A stretch of 54,722 nt of DNA from Actinokineospora pegani (GTDB lineage: Bacteria > Actinomycetota > Actinomycetes > Mycobacteriales > Pseudonocardiaceae), in the NCBI RefSeq assembly GCF_009745975.1, contig NZ_WHOL01000101.1:36159-90880 (forward strand). Reading direction: 5' to 3'. Positions 8,861 to 17,050 of this stretch are shown here, piece after piece. The notes under the pieces are model-generated. The model had not been told where the DNA came from, searched no databases, and saw only the letters and a list, made by a program, of their open reading frames with translations. The translations under genes were made by a program, and so were the position numbers. How positions within the stretch are numbered: position 1 is the first letter of the stretch; every line of letters starts with the position of its first letter.

Positions 8861-10333
8861 GTGAGCGAGCACAGAGGCGAGACCGACTGGCGCTCTGCGG
8901 ATTCGGAACCCTGGCGGGTGTGCGTGCTGGGGTTGTCGGGTGAGGCAGTGGGTGCCGGGATGCTGCTGGGCGGGTCCACCGTGCTCACCTGCGCGCACGT
9001 GGTCGAGGATGCCCGGAGGGGGCGGCCCGCCGATCAGCCGCCCGAGGTGCTGGTGCGGTTCGTGGGGTGCCCGGGGATGCCGGAGTCCCGCGCGCGGGTC
9101 CGGGGTGACGGGTGGGCGCCCGCGCTGGAGGACGGGCGGCGGGACATCGCGTTGCTGGAACTGGACACGGCCTTCCCCGAGGTCCCGGGGGCGCCGTTGG
9201 TGCGGCTGGGGTTCGTGCGCGACCGGGTGGTGCGCACCTACGGGTTCCCCCACCCCCACCAGTACGGCGTCTGGGTCAACGACGCCCAGTTGGCGGGGCC
9301 CGCGGGCGCGGGCGGCGAGTGGGTCCAGCTCAACTCCAAGCAGCCGGGGGAGCGGGTGCGCGGGGGGTTCAGCGGGGCCGGGGTGATCGACAAGGCGACC
9401 AACGCGGTGCTGGGCATGGTGGTCACCGAGTACACCGACGACCGGGTGGGGCTCGCCTACCTGATCCCGGTGGAGGTGATCGTCCAGTACGTTCCCGTGG
9501 TCGCCGGGTGGGTGGGGGCGCCGCCCAGCGCGCGGCCCGACCTGGACGTGGCCGACGACGAGGAGGCCGGCTGGGACGGGTGGGCGGGCGTGTTCGTCGA
9601 CGCGGCGGGCAAGACCCCGGCGCAGGTGGCCGAGCGCATCAGCGGGGAGAGCGGCGGCAGGCCGGACACGGGGCCGACCGGCGGCGCCCCGCTCGCGGTG
9701 ACCAGGATCGACGACTCCCGCGCGCCGGAGAAGGTCCTCACCGAGACGGTGTGGCCGCTGTTGCGCGGCGGGACCCCGGTCGTGGTCCAGTTCAGCGGGC
9801 TGGACTCGTCCGCCGCGCGCCTGGCCCGGCGCTGGCAGGAGGAGGGCAACGCCGCCCGGTTGGCGCGGCTGGCGATGCTGGCCGAGATCGTCGAGGCCGA
9901 GGAGGACCGGACCCGCGCGCTGGCCCTGCGGTTCCGCACCCCCGGCCACCCCCCGGCCGCCGTCCCCGGGCACGCCGCCGAGCTGCGGATGCGGCTGGGC
10001 GCGCTGCGGGCCGCGCGGGGGGTGGGGACGGGCCGGATGCGGCGCGCGCTGGTCTCGACCGAGCACCACGCCGAGCGGGTCCACCGCGAACTCGTCGGCC
10101 TGCACGCCGACCTGGTCGCGCGCGCCGCGCGGCTCGACGAGCTGCGCGGCCTGCTGCGCGCCTACAACGCCAGGGTCGCCGACTCGGGCCTGATGGAGGA
10201 CGAGGGGCTCGGTGTCCCCTACCGCGCGGCGATGACGGCGCTGTCCGCCGGGCTCGGCGGCGACCTCGCCGCCGCGGACGAGTTGGTGCGGGGCTACATC
10301 GATGCGGTCCGGCGCAGGGTGGGGGCGATGTGA
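8861..10333 (+). CDS. trypsin-like serine protease with helical C-terminal region
   Basis: A 490-residue protein without signal peptide. Residues 15-210 are a chymotrypsin-fold protease with an intact triad: H46 (TCAHVVE), D95 (RDIALLEL) and S171 (GGFSGAGV). Residues about 230-490 are rich in Arg, Ala and Leu and look helical, with no family I recognise; a short stretch at about 290-310 (PVVVQFSGLDSSAARLARRWQ) resembles the start of an alpha/beta domain. The lack of a secretion signal suggests a cytoplasmic, regulated protease, as in bacterial conflict and signalling operons (inference). It is the first gene of the PknG operon and overlaps pknG by four bases. No Shine-Dalgarno precedes the GTG, so the message may be leaderless. 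Confidence 0.85.
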   Translation: MSEHRGETDWRSADSEPWRVCVLGLSGEAVGAGMLLGGSTVLTCAHVVEDARRGRPADQPPEVLVRFVGCPGMPESRARVRGDGWAPALEDGRRDIALLELDTAFPEVPGAPLVRLGFVRDRVVRTYGFPHPHQYGVWVNDAQLAGPAGAGGEWVQLNSKQPGERVRGGFSGAGVIDKATNAVLGMVVTEYTDDRVGLAYLIPVEVIVQYVPVVAGWVGAPPSARPDLDVADDEEAGWDGWAGVFVDAAGKTPAQVAERISGESGGRPDTGPTGGAPLAVTRIDDSRAPEKVLTETVWPLLRGGTPVVVQFSGLDSSAARLARRWQEEGNAARLARLAMLAEIVEAEEDRTRALALRFRTPGHPPAAVPGHAAELRMRLGALRAARGVGTGRMRRALVSTEHHAERVHRELVGLHADLVARAARLDELRGLLRAYNARVADSGLMEDEGLGVPYRAAMTALSAGLGGDLAAADELVRGYIDAVRRRVGAM

Positions 10334-12555
10334 CGGGCGGTGCGCTGTGGTGCCACGGTCGACCGGTCGAGGCCATCGGGTTCTGCGAGGTGTGCGGGCA
10401 CGCCCCGGGAGCCCACGACGTGACGGCGACGAACGACGGGCTGATCACGTCGACGGGCACCGGCCCGGACCTGTCGGCGTCCACGACCGAGATCACCCGG
10501 CGCAGCGCCGAGCACCGGGGCGACGACGACTTCCAGGCGCTGCCCCCGGTCGAGGTGCCGGACCCGGCGCGGCTCATCCTCCCCGACCCCGAGTTCCCGG
10601 AGCGGCACCGGCACTGCGGCTTCTGCGGGGAGCCGGTCGGCCGCGCGTACCCGGCGGCGAACGAGCCCGCCTACGCCGAGGGCTTCTGCGAGAACTGCGG
10701 CGAGCCGTTCTCCTTCCTGCCCAAGCTCTCCTCGGGGGAGCGGGTCGGCGACCGCTACGACATCCTGGGCTGCTTCGCCCGCGGCGGGCAGGGCTGGATC
10801 TACCTGGCCACCGACACCGCTCTCGAGGGCCAGCACGTCGCGCTCAAGGGCGTGATCAACACCAACGACCCGGCGATGCGCGCGCTCGCCGCGCAGGAGA
10901 GCAAGGCGCTCGTCCGGCTCGACCACCCCAACATCGTCCGGGTCACCGACTCCGTGCGGCACCCGGCGCCCGGTGGCGGGCAGGACACCTACCTGGTGAT
11001 GGAGTACGTCGGCGGGCGCTCGCTTCGCGACCTGGTGTCGCACGGGCCGCCGCTTCGCGTCGAGCACGTGTTCGTCTACGGGCGGGCCATTCTCTCGGCC
11101 CTGGCGTACATGCACGGCGAGGGCCTGCTCTACTGCGACATGAAGCCGGAGAACGTGATCCACGGCGACAAGCGGGTCAAGGTCATCGACCTCGGCGCGA
11201 CCCGCTCGATCGGCGACCCGTCCGGCCGCAACGTGGGCACCCGCCCGTACCAGGTGTCCCAGGCCGAGATCGACGAGCACGGCCTGACCGTGCGCTCCGA
11301 CCTGCACACCGTGGGCTGGACGCTGCGGGACCTGCTGGCCGCGGTCGCCGACCCCGGCAGGCACCGGCCGGTGGGCGAGCTCGACGCCCTCGAGCGGGTG
11401 ATAGCCCGCGCGGTGGCCCCGTTCGAGCAGCGGTTCGCAGGCGCGGCGGACATGCTCGAGCAGCTCGACGGCGCGCGCCGGGAAGTCCTGTCCCTGCGCG
11501 ACGGGCACCCCCGTCCCACGCCGTCGACCCTGTTCGAGGACACCGCCGACCTGCTCGACGCGGAACTGGGCACGGTGCCCGACCTGGGCCGCTGGGTCGC
11601 GGGCGACCCGCTCGGCGGGCCGCTGGACACCCTCGTGCTCGACAGCCGGGGCGGCGCCGCGCGGCTGCCCGTCCCCCGGCTCGACCCGGCGGACCCGGCG
11701 GCGGAGTTCATCGCCACCGCGGCCGCCTCCGGCCCGCAGCGCTGGCTCACGACGCTGTCGCTGTTCGGCGAACCGTCGGTCGAGCTCCAGCTGGCCCGCG
11801 CCCGCGCGCTGGTGGCGCTCGGCGACGTCCACGGCGTGCTGCACGCGCTCGACGCGGCCAGGGACCTGCTCGGCGCCGCGGCCGCCCGCGACTGGCGGCT
11901 CGCCTGGCACCACGGGCTCAAGGACCTGCTCCGAGGCCACCCGGCCGACGCGGCGGAGAGGTTCGCGCAGGTGCGCCGGGCCTGGCCCGGCGAGGTCGCG
12001 CCCAACCTGGCGCTCGGCTTCTGCGCTGAGCTGCGGGGCGAGACGGGCACGGCCGAGCGCCACCACCGGGCCGTGTGGAGCCGGGACCACGGCCAGGTCA
12101 ACGCCGCGTTCGGCCTGGCGCGGTGCCACCTGCGCAGCCGGGGCCGAGACGCCGCCGTCGCCGTGCTGGACGACGTGCGACCCGTCTCCCGGCACCACGA
12201 CGCCGCCCGGATCGCCGCCGTGCGGATCAGGGTGGGCCGCCTGGCCGCAGGCCCACCCGGCCCAGCCGACCTCGCCGACGCCGTGCGGCGGCTGGCGGCG
12301 CTCGACCTCGACGGCGACGCCAAGGACCGCATGGAGGCGCTGGTCCGCGAGGCCGCGTTGGACGCCCACCTCGCCGACGGTGGGGGACCTGGGTGGAGTG
12401 GTGGCGCCCTGCTGGGGGAGCCGGTCACCGAGCACGGCTTGCGCACGCTGCTGGAGAAGTCCACGCGCAGGCTCGCCGAACGGGCCCGCGACCGCGATGA
12501 GCACGGCGTGCTGGTGGACCGGGCGAATTCCCACAGACCCAAGACCAGGAGGTGA
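10330..12555 (+). CDS. pknG: PknG-type serine/threonine protein kinase
   Basis: A 741-residue soluble kinase with the complete PknG architecture (the M. tuberculosis protein has 750). Order: an extra N-terminal cysteine knuckle (C8, FCEVC at 19-22), a Thr/Ser-rich linker with likely autophosphorylation sites, a rubredoxin-like double CxxCG (C96/C99, C120/C123), the kinase domain from about 142 (ARGGQGW loop, K173, non-RD catalytic YCDMKPEN with D270, DLG D287) and C-terminal TPR-like helices to about 700. In mycobacteria PknG phosphorylates GarA to control glutamate and TCA metabolism; that role is family knowledge. The GTG start overlaps the protease stop by four bases. The second cysteine knuckle is the unusual part. 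Confidence 0.95.
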   Translation: MTGGALWCHGRPVEAIGFCEVCGHAPGAHDVTATNDGLITSTGTGPDLSASTTEITRRSAEHRGDDDFQALPPVEVPDPARLILPDPEFPERHRHCGFCGEPVGRAYPAANEPAYAEGFCENCGEPFSFLPKLSSGERVGDRYDILGCFARGGQGWIYLATDTALEGQHVALKGVINTNDPAMRALAAQESKALVRLDHPNIVRVTDSVRHPAPGGGQDTYLVMEYVGGRSLRDLVSHGPPLRVEHVFVYGRAILSALAYMHGEGLLYCDMKPENVIHGDKRVKVIDLGATRSIGDPSGRNVGTRPYQVSQAEIDEHGLTVRSDLHTVGWTLRDLLAAVADPGRHRPVGELDALERVIARAVAPFEQRFAGAADMLEQLDGARREVLSLRDGHPRPTPSTLFEDTADLLDAELGTVPDLGRWVAGDPLGGPLDTLVLDSRGGAARLPVPRLDPADPAAEFIATAAASGPQRWLTTLSLFGEPSVELQLARARALVALGDVHGVLHALDAARDLLGAAAARDWRLAWHHGLKDLLRGHPADAAERFAQVRRAWPGEVAPNLALGFCAELRGETGTAERHHRAVWSRDHGQVNAAFGLARCHLRSRGRDAAVAVLDDVRPVSRHHDAARIAAVRIRVGRLAAGPPGPADLADAVRRLAALDLDGDAKDRMEALVREAALDAHLADGGGPGWSGGALLGEPVTEHGLRTLLEKSTRRLAERARDRDEHGVLVDRANSHRPKTRR

Positions 12556-12559
12556 CCGG

Positions 12560-13984
12560 GTGCGCGACCACCCGAGCCTGTCGTTCGCCGTCCAGGTCAA
12601 CCAGAACAAGTACCTCGCCCCCACCGACCAGGGCATGCACGTCGTCGTCACCGTCCGGGCGAGCAGGGCAGGCGCCCCGGCCGCCTGCGCGCCGCCGCGG
12701 GTCGCCGAGGTGCTGCTGGTGGACTGCTCGAGCTCGATGGACTGGCCGCCGACGAAGATCGACGCCGCCCGGCACGCCTGCCGGGTCGCCATCGACACCC
12801 TGCGCGACGGCGCGCTGTTCGGGGTGGTCGAGGGCACCGGCGCGGCCAAGCTGGTCTACCCGGCCGGGCCGGGGCTGGCGGTGGCCGACGCGCGCACCCG
12901 CCGCGAGGCCAAGGCGGCGGTCTCCGGGATGATCGCCAGCGGCGGGACCGCGATGAGCACCTGGCTGGACCTGGCGCGCGAGCTGTTCGAGCGGTCCCCG
13001 GCCCCGGTCCGGCACGCCGTGCTGCTCACCGACGGCAACAACCAGAGCGAGGCCCCCGGCGCCCTCGACGACGCCCTCGACCGGTGCCGGGACCGGTTCG
13101 CCTGCGACGCCAGGGGGATCGGCGCGGACTGGGAGCCGATGCAGCTGCGGCGCATCGCCTCGGCGCTGGGCGGCCGGGCGGACGCGGTGGTCGCCGACGA
13201 CCTGCTCGCCGACGACTTCCGGCAGCTCGTCGAGCAGGCGATGGGGCGGACCGCGCCCGAGGTCCGGCTGCGGCTGCGGCTCATGCCCCGCACCGGGTTG
13301 CGGTTCGTCAAGCAGGTCTTCCCGGCGCTGGTGGACCTGACCGGGCGGTGCCGGGACGCGGGCGAGGCGATCGAGGTGCCCATCGGGGACTGGGGCCAGG
13401 ATCAGCGCGAGTACCACCTCTGCCTGGACGTCGACACCGCCGCGCTGACCCGGGGCCGCGATCGGCTGCTGGGCGTGGTGGCGCTGGTGGTCGCGGACGA
13501 GCACGGGACGGGCGCCGAGCGCGCGGTCGTGGGCCACCTGACCGACGACCTGGAGCTGTCCAGCGTGCTGGACAACAACGTCGCCCAGGTCACCGACCAG
13601 GCCGAGCTGGCCAGGGCGGTGGACGGCGGCTGGGTGGCGGTCAACCGCGGCGACCTGGTCGAGGCGGCGCGCGAGTGGGGGGCCGCGCACCGGCTGGCGA
13701 TCGCGCTGGGCCACACCGAACTCCGCGACCGGCTCGAGAAGCTGATCGAGGCGCGCCCGGGCGGCCAGGTCGTGATCAAGGACGAGGTGGACCCGCGCTA
13801 CCGCCACTCGGCCATCCTGCCGCCGACGATCTCCAGTCACGTCAACGTCAACCCGCTCCCGCGCTCCCCGCTGGTCCAGGAGGCGGGGGCGCCACGCACG
13901 TGCGGCGGCTGCGGGCGAGCGGCGCGGCCCACCGCGAAGTGCTGCGGGCACTGCGGCACAGCGTTCACGGGGGACACGCCATGA
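12560..13984 (+). CDS. von Willebrand factor A protein with C-terminal zinc ribbon
   Basis: A 474-residue protein. The VWA domain (about 48-230) has an intact metal-ion adhesion site: DCSSS with D55, S57 and S59, the threonine in ASGGTAMS, and the aspartate in LLTDGNN. A beta-rich middle part (about 240-380) follows, then a helical segment, and a zinc ribbon at the end with C448/C451 and C462/C465. There is no signal peptide or membrane helix. AGGAGG sits seven bases before the GTG start, the strongest ribosome site in the operon, implying high expression. It lies between pknG and the membrane sensor gene. I infer a scaffold or substrate of the kinase; the cysteine ribbon echoes the CxxC elements of PknG. 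Confidence 0.9.
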   Translation: MRDHPSLSFAVQVNQNKYLAPTDQGMHVVVTVRASRAGAPAACAPPRVAEVLLVDCSSSMDWPPTKIDAARHACRVAIDTLRDGALFGVVEGTGAAKLVYPAGPGLAVADARTRREAKAAVSGMIASGGTAMSTWLDLARELFERSPAPVRHAVLLTDGNNQSEAPGALDDALDRCRDRFACDARGIGADWEPMQLRRIASALGGRADAVVADDLLADDFRQLVEQAMGRTAPEVRLRLRLMPRTGLRFVKQVFPALVDLTGRCRDAGEAIEVPIGDWGQDQREYHLCLDVDTAALTRGRDRLLGVVALVVADEHGTGAERAVVGHLTDDLELSSVLDNNVAQVTDQAELARAVDGGWVAVNRGDLVEAAREWGAAHRLAIALGHTELRDRLEKLIEARPGGQVVIKDEVDPRYRHSAILPPTISSHVNVNPLPRSPLVQEAGAPRTCGGCGRAARPTAKCCGHCGTAFTGDTP

Positions 13985-15105
13985 CCGGCGGACCGAGGAG
14001 CACCACCCGCAAGACCCTGTCGCGGCTGCGGTTCGGGCTGGTGGCGGGCAGCGGGCTGGTGCTCGCCACCGCCCTGGCGACCCTGCTCGGCATCCGGTCG
14101 GACCTCGCCGAGGTGCGCGAGCGGACCGCGCCCGCGGTGCTGGAGGTGTCGCTGGCCAAGGAGGCGCTGGTGTCCGCGCACCGCGCGGCGGTGTCGGCGT
14201 TCGACGACGGCCACGCCCGGCTGACCGGGCCCGGCGAGCGGTACGAGGACGAGATCGCGCGGACCAGCCAGCAACTGGCCCAGGTCGCCGAGCACAACGC
14301 CGCGGGCGCGCCGGGCAGCCGGACGCTGCGGCTGGTCGAGGGCCTGCTGCCCACCTACAACGGCTTCATCGGGCAGGCCGACGCACACTTCCGGCAGGAC
14401 GCGGGCGGCCCGCTCGCGGCGCACAACCTGCTCTCGGCCTCGGCCCTGCTCACCGCCGACCAGAACGGCATCCTCGCCCAGCTCGACGCGCTCGGGGCCG
14501 CGCAACGGGAAGCGCTGCGCGAACAGCTCGACGACGGCTGGCTGCACCCGGCGGTCATGCTGGTGTGGGCGGCGCCGCTGCTCGTCCTGCTCGTGGCCCT
14601 GTGGTGGGCGCAGCGCTTCCTCGCCGCCCGCTTCCGCCGCTCGCTGAACCCCGCCCTGCTCGCCGCCACCGCGACGCTGCTGCTCCTGGGCGTCGCGATG
14701 TCCTTCCTGGCCGGGGCCCGGTCCGGCGCAGGCGACAGCGCGGCCGCACTGGCGCGCGCCGTCGACGCCCGTTCGGCCGCCACGGCGGCCGAGGACGTCG
14801 AGGCCCAGCGGACGCTCGTCCAGGTCGTGCAGGCCCAGTGCGGTGGCCCGGGGGCGGTCACCTGCGGTGACACGGTGGCCGCCTTCGCCGCGGCCGCGCC
14901 GTCCACCGAGCCGGTCGCGCCGTCGCCGGAGGTCGACCGGTCGGCGCCCGCGGGAGCCGGGTTCGCGGAACCGCCGTGGAGCGGGGCGCTCGGCGCCGGG
15001 GTGCTGGTGTCGGCCCTGGGCGCCGGTGTCCTGATCGTGGTCGGCTTGCAGCCGCGCATCGACGAGTACTGGTTCCGCAGGGCGAGGGGACGGGCGGACC
15101 GGTGA
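13981..15105 (+). CDS. GlnX-like membrane sensor protein
   Basis: A 374-residue protein with four predicted helices: about 18-37, 191-210, 224-243 and 336-355. The 150-residue loop after the first helix (40-190) is helical and extracytoplasmic, like a four-helix-bundle sensor, and a second outer loop spans 245-335 with two cysteines (C287, C295) that could form a disulfide. Topology and operon position match mycobacterial GlnX, which transmits the state of the lipoprotein GlnH to PknG; sequence similarity cannot be measured here. ATG overlaps the VWA stop by four bases, and the stop overlaps the next gene by four bases. Confidence 0.75.
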   Translation: MTGGPRSTTRKTLSRLRFGLVAGSGLVLATALATLLGIRSDLAEVRERTAPAVLEVSLAKEALVSAHRAAVSAFDDGHARLTGPGERYEDEIARTSQQLAQVAEHNAAGAPGSRTLRLVEGLLPTYNGFIGQADAHFRQDAGGPLAAHNLLSASALLTADQNGILAQLDALGAAQREALREQLDDGWLHPAVMLVWAAPLLVLLVALWWAQRFLAARFRRSLNPALLAATATLLLLGVAMSFLAGARSGAGDSAAALARAVDARSAATAAEDVEAQRTLVQVVQAQCGGPGAVTCGDTVAAFAAAAPSTEPVAPSPEVDRSAPAGAGFAEPPWSGALGAGVLVSALGAGVLIVVGLQPRIDEYWFRRARGRADR

Positions 15106-16415
15106 TCAAGAAGATCGTCGCGCTGGCGGCGGCCGCCGTGCTGGTGGCCCAGGTCGGCCTGTCCGGCTGCGCCGGGGACGCCGATCAGGACACGGTGACG
15201 GTGCTCGGGCCGTGGACGGGCAGCGAGGAGGTCGCCTTCGAGCGCGTGCTCGACGACTTCCGGGCCAAGACGGGCTACCAGGTGCGGTACGAGGGGACCC
15301 GCGCGCAGAACCAGGTGCTGCGCAGTGACGTGCAGCAGGGCGTCCCGCCGGACATAGCGGTGCTGTCCAACCCGGCCGAACTCGCGCGCTACGCCCGCTC
15401 GGGCGACCTCCAGCCGCTCGACGCCGTCCTCCGCGCGGAGGCGGCCGCCGCCTACAGCCCGCAGTGGCTCCGCCTGCAACGGCTCGGCACGGACTCGGTG
15501 TACGCGGTCGCGGTGAAGGCCGACTTGAAGAGCATCATCTGGTACGACCCGAAGGCCCTCACCCGCCCCGAACCGACCACCTGGGACGAACTGGTGGCGA
15601 CCAGCCGCGCGCTGACCTCGGCCGGCCGGACGCCGTGGTGCCTGGGCATGGGCGCCCCGCCCAACTCGGGTTTCCCGGGCACCGACTGGATCGAGGACAT
15701 CCTGCTGCACACGGCGGGCCCGCGGGCCTACCGGGACTGGGCGGCGGGCGAGCTGGCCTGGACCGACCCGGCGGTGCGCGCGGCCTGGCAGCGGTGGGGC
15801 CAACTCGTGCTGCCGCCGGGCGCGGTCCGCGGCGGGCCGACGGCCGCGCTGCTCACCACGTTCGGCGACGCGGGCAAGGCCATGGTCACCGACCCGCCCG
15901 GCTGCGCCATGGACCACCTGGGCTCGTTCGCCATCGGCGGCTACGCCGACGCCCAGCGCCCCGGCGGGCCACCCCGGCCGGACCGGGACTTCCGCTTCTT
16001 CCCGTTCCCCGGCGCGGGCGACGGCGGCCCGTCGGAGGTCGCCGCCGACCTGGCGGGCATGTTCCGCGACACCCCCGGCGCCCGCGCCCTCATGGCCCAC
16101 CTCGCCAGCGAACGCGGCCAGCGCGTGTGGCCCTCGGACGGCACGACCTTCTCCGTCCACCAGCGCCTGGTCGACCAGGACCTCTACCGGACCGACGTCG
16201 GCAAGCGGATCGCGCGCACCCTGGCCCGGGGCGCCGAACTCTGCTTCGACGCCTCGGACCTGATGCCCTCGGCCATGAGCAGCGCGTTCTACCAGGCCGT
16301 CCTGGAGTACCTGGCCCACCCGGACCGGCTCGACACCCTGCTCGCCGAACTGGACCGCGTCCGCGCGGGCGTCGACCCGCGGCAGTGGCTCGACCTGCCC
16401 TGCGGCACGACCTAG
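15102..16415 (+). CDS. lipoprotein solute-binding protein (ABC family 1 type)
   Basis: A 437-residue extracytoplasmic binding protein. The signal peptide MIKKIVALAAAAVLVAQV ends in the lipobox LSGC with C23 as the lipidated cysteine. The body shows a carbohydrate-type family-1 pattern: TVLGPWTGSEEVAFERVLDDF, PPDIAVLSNP, and IIWYDPKAL...PTTWDELVA. No permease or ATPase is encoded nearby, and it is the last gene of the PknG operon, in the position of glnH. I therefore infer that it works as a ligand sensor rather than a transporter component. It is larger than GlnH (about 330) and of a different fold class, so the ligand may not be an amino acid. Confidence 0.85.
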   Translation: MIKKIVALAAAAVLVAQVGLSGCAGDADQDTVTVLGPWTGSEEVAFERVLDDFRAKTGYQVRYEGTRAQNQVLRSDVQQGVPPDIAVLSNPAELARYARSGDLQPLDAVLRAEAAAAYSPQWLRLQRLGTDSVYAVAVKADLKSIIWYDPKALTRPEPTTWDELVATSRALTSAGRTPWCLGMGAPPNSGFPGTDWIEDILLHTAGPRAYRDWAAGELAWTDPAVRAAWQRWGQLVLPPGAVRGGPTAALLTTFGDAGKAMVTDPPGCAMDHLGSFAIGGYADAQRPGGPPRPDRDFRFFPFPGAGDGGPSEVAADLAGMFRDTPGARALMAHLASERGQRVWPSDGTTFSVHQRLVDQDLYRTDVGKRIARTLARGAELCFDASDLMPSAMSSAFYQAVLEYLAHPDRLDTLLAELDRVRAGVDPRQWLDLPCGTT

Positions 16416-16550: not shown

Positions 16551-17050
16551 TGGACCTGACCCCCTATGTGGCTTCCCTCGGTCGCGAGCTGCTCACAGCG
16601 GTCGAGACCGGGGACGGCGAGGCAGGCGCGCTGGTCGAGCGGCTGACCGTGTCGATGGAGTCGGCCATCCGGCTCGCGTTGCTGGAGGCGTTGTCGGCCG
16701 CGGCCGACGAGATCACCCGCGACCTGGCCCCGGGGTCGGTGCAGGTGCGGTTGCGCGGGCGCGACCCGGACTTCGTCGTGACGACCCAGCCGGTCAAGCA
16801 GTCCGCCGCCGAGCCCGCGCCGGTGGACGAGCCCCCGGCCGGCATCGAGGACGGTCCCGCGACGCGGATCAACGTCCGGCTCCCCGAGCAGCTCAAGGCC
16901 GCGATCGAGGAGGCGGCGGCCAAGGAGGGGCGGTCGCTCAACGCCTGGCTGGTCCGGGCCGCCGTGGGCGCGCTCCAGCCGCCCGCGCGCGCCCAGACGC
17001 GCAACGCGGGCAAGCCCGGTCCGCAACGCCACACCGGCTGGGCGCGCTAG
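16550..17050 (+). CDS. HicB-like ribbon-helix-helix DNA-binding protein
   Basis: A 166-residue protein. The C-terminal third has an Arc/MetJ-type ribbon-helix-helix: the strand TRINVRLPEQLKAAIEEAA and the helix GRSLNAWLVRAAVGAL. The N-terminal part (residues 1-60) is helical with many acidic and hydrophobic residues and may hold an oligomerisation or ligand domain; 60-85 looks like a beta strand pair (VQVRLRGRDPDFVVTT). Such proteins are often annotated as HicB-family antitoxins, but no HicA toxin gene is adjacent, so I infer a transcriptional regulator. It precedes a DUF4097 gene and a DrrAB-type exporter and sits behind its own dyad operator. The extreme C terminus is basic. Confidence 0.75.
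   Translation: MDLTPYVASLGRELLTAVETGDGEAGALVERLTVSMESAIRLALLEALSAAADEITRDLAPGSVQVRLRGRDPDFVVTTQPVKQSAAEPAPVDEPPAGIEDGPATRINVRLPEQLKAAIEEAAAKEGRSLNAWLVRAAVGALQPPARAQTRNAGKPGPQRHTGWAR

Follow-up and report, generated by a model that had tools for sequence, protein, structure and literature searches.

A PknG-type operon with a trypsin-like protease in Actinokineospora pegani: a candidate transmembrane signalling unit with proteolytic output

Organisation of the operon

The stretch of DNA analysed here (the window, 54,722 nucleotides of contig NZ_WHOL01000101.1 of Actinokineospora pegani) carries between positions 8861 and 16415 five closely packed genes on the forward strand, which encode a trypsin-like protease, a PknG-type kinase, a von Willebrand factor A (VWA) protein, a GlnX-like membrane sensor and a solute-binding lipoprotein (the binder). 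ADC is the name coined in the present analysis for the C-terminal helical domain of the protease. The genes and the features within them are as follows:

8861..10333, + strand: trypsin-like protease fused to a nucleoside triphosphatase (NTPase) remnant and a C-terminal helical ADC domain, 490 aa
8915..9511, + strand: trypsin-fold domain with the triad H46/D95/S171 (residues 19-217; alignments, AlphaFold2 model, Foldseek)
9542..9790, + strand: small alpha/beta region resembling P-loop NTPases, without Walker A (residues 228-310)
9809..10327, + strand: long helical hairpin and ADC domain (residues 317-489), common to non-protease proteins adjoining PknG
10330..12555, + strand: PknG-type Ser/Thr kinase with rubredoxin, kinase and TPR parts, 741 aa (Pfam; motifs VALK, YCDMKPEN and IDLGA)
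12560..13984, + strand: VWA protein with intact metal-ion-dependent adhesion site (MIDAS), 474 aa (Pfam, alignments)
13901..13954, + strand: C-terminal Cys4 zinc ribbon of the VWA protein (sequence and alignment)
13981..15105, + strand: GlnX-like membrane sensor with shortened second extracellular segment, 374 aa (NCBIfam NF058618, E 3.6e-29)
15055..15078, + strand: cytoplasmic GlnX tail RIDEYWFR (tail comparison across loci)
15102..16415, + strand: family-1 solute-binding lipoprotein, 437 aa (Pfam SBP_bac_1, E 9.7e-23; lipobox LSGC)

In the reading frames the successive junctions are a 4-base overlap, a 4-base gap and two further 4-base overlaps, which reproduces the five gene borders and all four junctions of a preliminary description of this DNA; the sensor gene was located by hidden Markov model rescue after GC-based gene calling. 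When related loci were scored by their stop codons (start codons not being part of that scoring), the stop lay inside an NTGA tetramer, the context that a 4-base overlap gives, in 41 of 46 loci for the protease, 29 of 46 for the kinase, 46 of 46 for VWA and 40 of 43 for glnX, window included. Since these stop contexts recur, and since the same gene order is found in other genera and families, the arrangement is not a matter of chance. At the protein level, Actinokineospora sp. G85 is the nearest named relative (VWA 84%, protease 87%).

Occurrence in other genomes

Two overlapping genome sets were searched, an order set of 199 and a class set of 246 genomes; because at most 10, 7, 8, 8, 6 or 8 candidates were scored per genome, depending on the search, absences are soft. 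PknG_TPR matched 81 of the 199 order genomes, 79 of them above the cut-off. The VWA profile at E 1e-20 marked 34 places in 31 order genomes, 32 of these places being no more than 1.3 kb from a PknG match, and in the class set 63 of 76 VWA places lie within 3.1 kb of PknG. Likewise, 15 of the 16 trypsin-ADC proteases of the order set (read by hand) sit inside a protease-PknG-VWA locus, so that the VWA and protease genes are PknG-linked instead of occurring regularly without pknG. All 12 separate ADC-only matches of the order set, also read by hand, fall within about 2.5 kb of PknG, and among the 44 ADC-only matches listed for the class set (the matches listed, not all matches) 42 are less than 5 kb from PknG and the remaining two on other contigs of PknG-bearing genomes.

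The five-gene order recurs across families, Pseudonocardiaceae and Streptomycetaceae among them, which agrees with the earlier proposal of one conserved unit akin to GlnH-GlnX-PknG. Named trypsin-bearing loci come from Pseudonocardiaceae, Streptomycetaceae, Micromonosporaceae and Streptosporangiaceae, and a further locus, L042, belongs to Thermomonosporaceae. Two VWA relatives in genome G103 (L020 and L107) include one that lies inside a frame of about 1430 residues.

A search with PF16918 returned three PknG loci in the host genome, on contigs C47, C101 and C39. The first (L004) is a canonical glnX-glnH-pknG operon and the second is the operon of the window, while the third (L005:5548-13265, genome G000) is a second protease-PknG-VWA set, followed by a Trypco1 gene (PF19493, E 1.5e-26) and faced on the opposite strand by a convergent pair of a family-3-type binder and GlnX. 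The two sets share 32% identity in the protease (372 aligned columns), 43% in the kinase (721) and 39% in the VWA protein (476). As the C39 set is accompanied by a family-3-type and the window set by a family-1 binder, the module is present twice with different binders, and this duplication within a single genome opens the system to tests by gene deletion.

Protease and phosphatase forms

The loci named here are the best 80 of at least 567 by likeness to the VWA protein, and because they were chosen in this way they are uninformative on loci without VWA. They were classified by profiles built from the window and the fetched loci into 37 of protease form (class I), 37 of phosphatase form (class II), three without a recognised trypsin that retain ADC, kinase and VWA (L041, L042 and L081, the last cut by a contig end) and three without kinase (L051 and L103, at contig ends, and L082). 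Trypsin and PP2C matches occur together in none of the 74 classified loci. Trypsin, ADC, kinase, VWA, GlnX and a family-1 binder are all present in 35 of the 37 class I loci, with the ADC domain of L046 assigned via the class II profile; the other two (L039 and L048, both Saccharothrix) carry Trypco1 together with a family-3 binder and GlnX in inverted orientation, like L005. Trypco1 is encoded in 22 of the 37 and an FHA match is found in none. Kinase, PP2C and VWA occur in all 37 class II loci, FHA in 36, an ADC protein in 35, GlnX in 31 and a family-3 binder in 27, some of these losses being due to contig ends; Pfam confirmed PP2C and FHA in L006 and FHA also in L009.

The preliminary description regarded both the protease and the VWA protein as additions to the mycobacterial chain. 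This holds for the trypsin head, which is specific; the VWA protein, however, also adjoins PknG in the sister form with PP2C and FHA genes and is therefore not peculiar to the protease version. Judged by gene content, the specific additions of the protease form are the trypsin head on ADC, the changed binder class and Trypco1, the last in relatives and not in the window. Directly downstream of the operon (16553-17050), where many relatives encode Trypco1, the window encodes a ribbon-helix-helix protein (RHH_1, E 1.5e-6).

A quick LG+G4 tree of 105 kinases, with support from the SH-like approximate likelihood ratio test (SH-aLRT) only and long rows flagged, places the class I kinases and their three trypsin-less relatives on a single branch (50 rows, SH-aLRT 100) nested among class II; the stem to class I is long, and the four canonical kinases used as outgroup do not form one side of a branch. 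The simplest reading of this tree is that the protease form arose once from a phosphatase/FHA ancestor. An Actinokineospora locus (L015 and L066) combines a single protease-PknG-VWA set with two pairs of GlnX and binder, in which both binder classes are represented, and such a double-input locus may be an intermediate of input exchange. A distant third form (L011 and L019) combines PknG, VWA, an FHA-profile gene, GlnX and a family-3 binder, and close to that of L011 there are two more matches to trypsin and one to Trypco1.

Pairwise distances covary most strongly between GlnX and binder (rho 0.76), followed by kinase and VWA (0.64), kinase and ADC (0.61) and trypsin domain and Trypco1 (0.60), all of these values being inflated by shared descent and the better match being used for loci with two GlnX genes.

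Domain architecture and active sites

The protease matches Pfam Trypsin_2 (E 9.4e-8), and in its predicted model (AlphaFold2, 42-row alignment, mean predicted local distance difference test score 87.4, predicted template modelling score 0.71) the N-terminal part matches chymotrypsin-fold enzymes in Foldseek at E 1e-8; fold and His-Asp-Ser triad are both those of an S1-type peptidase. The triad, described as intact in the preliminary description, is invariant in a 24-row alignment, kept at 90% or more in the 42-row alignment and retained in 45 of 47 protease-form loci, window included. Large WD40 proteins contain a P-loop NTPase to which the middle part is similar; among them, L115 and L116 have the Walker A motif that is missing from the protease. 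The ADC profile, whose alignment includes the window protease, matches it at E 6e-31, and these C-terminal ~170 residues also match trypsin-less proteins encoded next to PknG in class II; by such matches the ADC helical domain accompanies PknG with or without a trypsin head.

In Actinomadura chibensis (L042:6595-7683) the place of trypsin on the ADC protein is taken by a head with a nucleotide-cyclase fold, recognised by VIA-align, which re-aligns Foldseek candidates, and by a profile search of the PDB. This head gave no Pfam match and no match below 0.001 in Foldseek alone (adenylyl cyclase 7yzk at E 3.1); the modelled protein, P0197, is the annotated form, which starts later than the other members of its alignment. 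A caspase-like head suspected by eye on a class II ADC protein of the same genus (L009:12736-13866, - strand) is not claimed, since Pfam and a PDB sequence search returned nothing for it.

By its domain composition the kinase is a member of the PknG family, with PknG_TPR (PF16918, E 1.7e-65, 221.5 bits, cut-off 27), Pkinase (PF00069, E 2.4e-25, 89.9 bits, cut-off 31.7) and PknG_rubred (PF16919, E 2.1e-16, 60.1 bits, cut-off 28.5), the last with its two CxxC pairs. Its lysine is kept in 46 of 47 class I rows, the remaining row having a gap, and the catalytic and DLG-type aspartates are kept in the rows displayed.

The VWA protein matches VWA_3 (E 5.3e-15) and no effector domain in Pfam. The alignments bear out both an intact metal site and a terminal zinc ribbon, as first described: MIDAS residues D55/S57/S59, T130 and D158 are invariant in the 24-row alignment, while among the 47 protease-form loci DxSxS is kept in the 39 rows displayed for it, the threonine in the 45 displayed and the aspartate in all 47. 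The zinc-ribbon pattern is present in 42 of 47 protease-form and 1 of 49 PP2C-form VWA proteins.

On the input side, the match of the sensor to the GlnX profile (102 bits) remains under the curated cut-off of 250, and profile positions 309-370 of 416 are unmatched. As the second extracellular segment is shortened, the term four-helix sensor used in the preliminary description applies at best to the first. Of the 43 protease-form GlnX frames scored, 37 end in a tail of the pattern R(L/I/V/F)xEY; slightly varied, this tail also ends the listed class II and third-form (class III) frames and that of L004, the single canonical GlnX compared. Five Streptomyces frames (L046, L063, L070, L086 and L094) stop at a Cys-containing segment.

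The binder belongs, as proposed, to a larger family-1 type, and no family-3 match was listed for it in Pfam up to E 1; its lipobox was read by eye, with the Cys codon at 15168-15170. Its nearest solved relatives, 7eho (6e-12), 3vxb, 2b3b and AcbH, are chitin-oligosaccharide, sugar-lipoprotein, glucose and AcbH proteins, and since these bind sugars their likeness suggests a carbohydrate ligand. A family-3 binding-protein profile match on the - strand of the window at about 23.7 kb is perhaps an ordinary transporter component.

Proposed mechanism and alternative explanations

Gene content, gene order, domains, active-site conservation and the exchange of input and output parts can be read from the compared sequences, and we lean towards the view that the five genes work as a single PknG-like transmembrane signalling unit whose output is proteolysis and in which an outside solute may control the kinase and a proteolytic step. 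The binder-GlnX-kinase steps are taken in outline from the canonical pathway, where GlnH, GlnX and PknG work as one chain (PMC6069109, PMC9769921) and contact of GlnX with the PknG TPR domain is a proposal (PMC8546545, PMC9769921), according to the available parts of these papers. The lipoprotein would bind a small outside solute, probably a sugar or oligosaccharide, and once loaded contact the extracellular part of GlnX, which would use its short RxxEY tail to relay the signal to the kinase at the TPR region. The kinase would phosphorylate a partner, for which the VWA protein and the helical region of the protease are the likeliest candidates, and this would alter a VWA-ADC complex to which VWA contributes a peptide-binding metal site; the altered complex would then free the trypsin domain or aim it at cytoplasmic targets, with Trypco1 assisting or restraining it in many relatives. 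The ligand, the role of the tail, the substrate, the complex and the kinase-protease link are what we infer here. By analogy, the input path would remain that of the canonical system, and the proteolytic output would replace the phosphatase/FHA branch.

Several observations weigh against this reading. The window operon lacks Trypco1, which is absent from C101 and has its sole match in the genome in the C39 paralogue. The two order-set VWA places away from PknG are both in G103, where PF16918 has no match, and 13 of the 76 class-set places have no PknG within 5 kb: for ten of them the contig has no PknG match, and three are distant from one on the same contig; moreover, L082 has VWA but no kinase within its 10-kb flanks. 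One trypsin-ADC protein (G108:C156, L106:8723-10414, - strand) has no PknG nearby and adjoins a DNA polymerase I gene. The triad is altered in two of the 47 loci, to R/E/G in L044, which keeps none of the three residues, and from D to N in L040. The tail is missing from the five Streptomyces class I frames mentioned above and is a variant in L022. The distances of trypsin domain and binder covary weakly (0.17, the lowest pair). Finally, proteolysis is not an obligate output, as L041 has no recognised head and L042 a cyclase fold.

A wider reading, which we offer tentatively and with less assurance, would treat PknG, VWA and ADC as the constant core of a modular platform in which both outside input and inside output are exchangeable, the inputs being a binder for amino acids or for sugars together with its GlnX and the outputs trypsin with Trypco1, a nucleotide-cyclase fold, or a phosphatase with an FHA reader. 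Such a platform would connect PknG nutrient sensing with the effector kit of the conflict systems of multicellular actinobacteria.

It is also conceivable, if on balance unlikely, that the operon is a conflict or dormancy system, assembled from components of the predicted conflict systems of multicellular bacteria, in which PknG triggers the trypsin, an outside cue acts as the switch and the target is the cell itself. The frequency of Trypco1 in the relatives fits such a role, Trypco1/2 being defined as neighbours of trypsin in VMAP systems, and the exchange of trypsin for a cyclase parallels the alternative VMAP heads (both from the available text of PMC7159879). Relatives of the trypsin domain bear TIR or EAD2 (P0169, P0187, P0195 and P0196), the NTPase remnant resembles that of large NTPase-WD40 proteins, and the distribution over five genomes of the genus is patchy, with the protease form in G000, G012 and G118, the phosphatase form in G161 and no VWA match in G137. 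However, none of the eight MoxR-type matches (PF07726) in the genome is on C101, the VWA protein is without an effector domain in Pfam and a search of 72,556 plasmid records at E 1e-20 returned no match for the protease. PADLOC gave one weak hit for the protease, to RT-Protease (1.1e-5), kinase matches that mostly read as general kinase likeness, and none for VWA, GlnX or binder. In a Foldseek comparison with viral proteins the protease matched trypsin-like proteases and polyproteins, none of them specific.

PknG has been studied in mycobacteria and corynebacteria as a metabolic regulator with amino-acid input and a phosphorylated FHA protein as output. The kinase of the window might likewise phosphorylate a GarA/OdhI-type FHA protein encoded elsewhere, with protease and VWA scaffolding or trimming the complex, which would fit the retention of its rubredoxin, kinase and TPR parts, the four FHA matches in the host genome (all outside the operon and its contig) and the FHA protein encoded beside PknG in sister operons. 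We regard this as doubtful, because the genome already has a canonical operon in L004, no classified locus has both a trypsin and a PP2C match, FHA is absent from the class I loci and the triad is so widely kept. That the five genes merely share a promoter, as the low covariation of trypsin domain and binder might indicate, is highly improbable given their recurrence across families, the second paralogous set and the rarity of VWA and ADC matches away from PknG.

If the signalling unit that we favour is real, PknG would be the middle of a plug-in pathway with sugar-type input and protease or cyclase output in several actinobacterial families, the pathway would be tied to predicted conflict systems, and there would be a direct route to learning how proteolysis inside the cell is governed by a binding lipoprotein.

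Comparison with known systems

No functional description of a PknG operon with protease and VWA was found in a literature search that left most subscription journals outside, a result in keeping with the preliminary description. The available text of PMC6069109 mentions other Streptomyces kinases linked to binding proteins and no protease, and that of PMC1262709 deals with other kinases and not with a PknG-VWA system. Trypco1 was defined by Kaur et al. 2020 (PMC7159879), and "pkng" is absent from the main text of this paper and of PMC10907252.

The VMAP/MoxR-vWA ternary conflict systems resemble the protease form in trypsin, vWA, Trypco1 (in relatives of the window) and exchangeable heads, including cyclases, and a kinase-PP2C-vWA theme is likewise present in the available parts of the source (PMC7159879). 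The window differs from them in a contig without a MoxR match and in an input via PknG, GlnX and a binding protein. Triads of vWA, PP2C and kinase, known as TerY-P type, also pair vWA with a Ser/Thr kinase, whereas the window has no match to the PP2C profile and its kinase is of the PknG type.

The class II sister operons share ADC domain, kinase, VWA and GlnX with the window but have a trypsin-less ADC protein, PP2C and usually FHA, a GlnH-type binder and, in 48 of 49 cases, a VWA protein without the terminal zinc ribbon of the window protein. With the GlnH-GlnX-PknG system of mycobacteria and Corynebacterium glutamicum the operon has in common a PknG-type kinase with TPR, a GlnX-like sensor and a binding lipoprotein encoded in a single operon. 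It differs from that system in its binder, which is a sugar-type protein of family 1 where the canonical one is of family 3 (Asp/Glu), in the shortened second segment of GlnX, in gene order and in the addition of a VWA protein and a trypsin-ADC protease.

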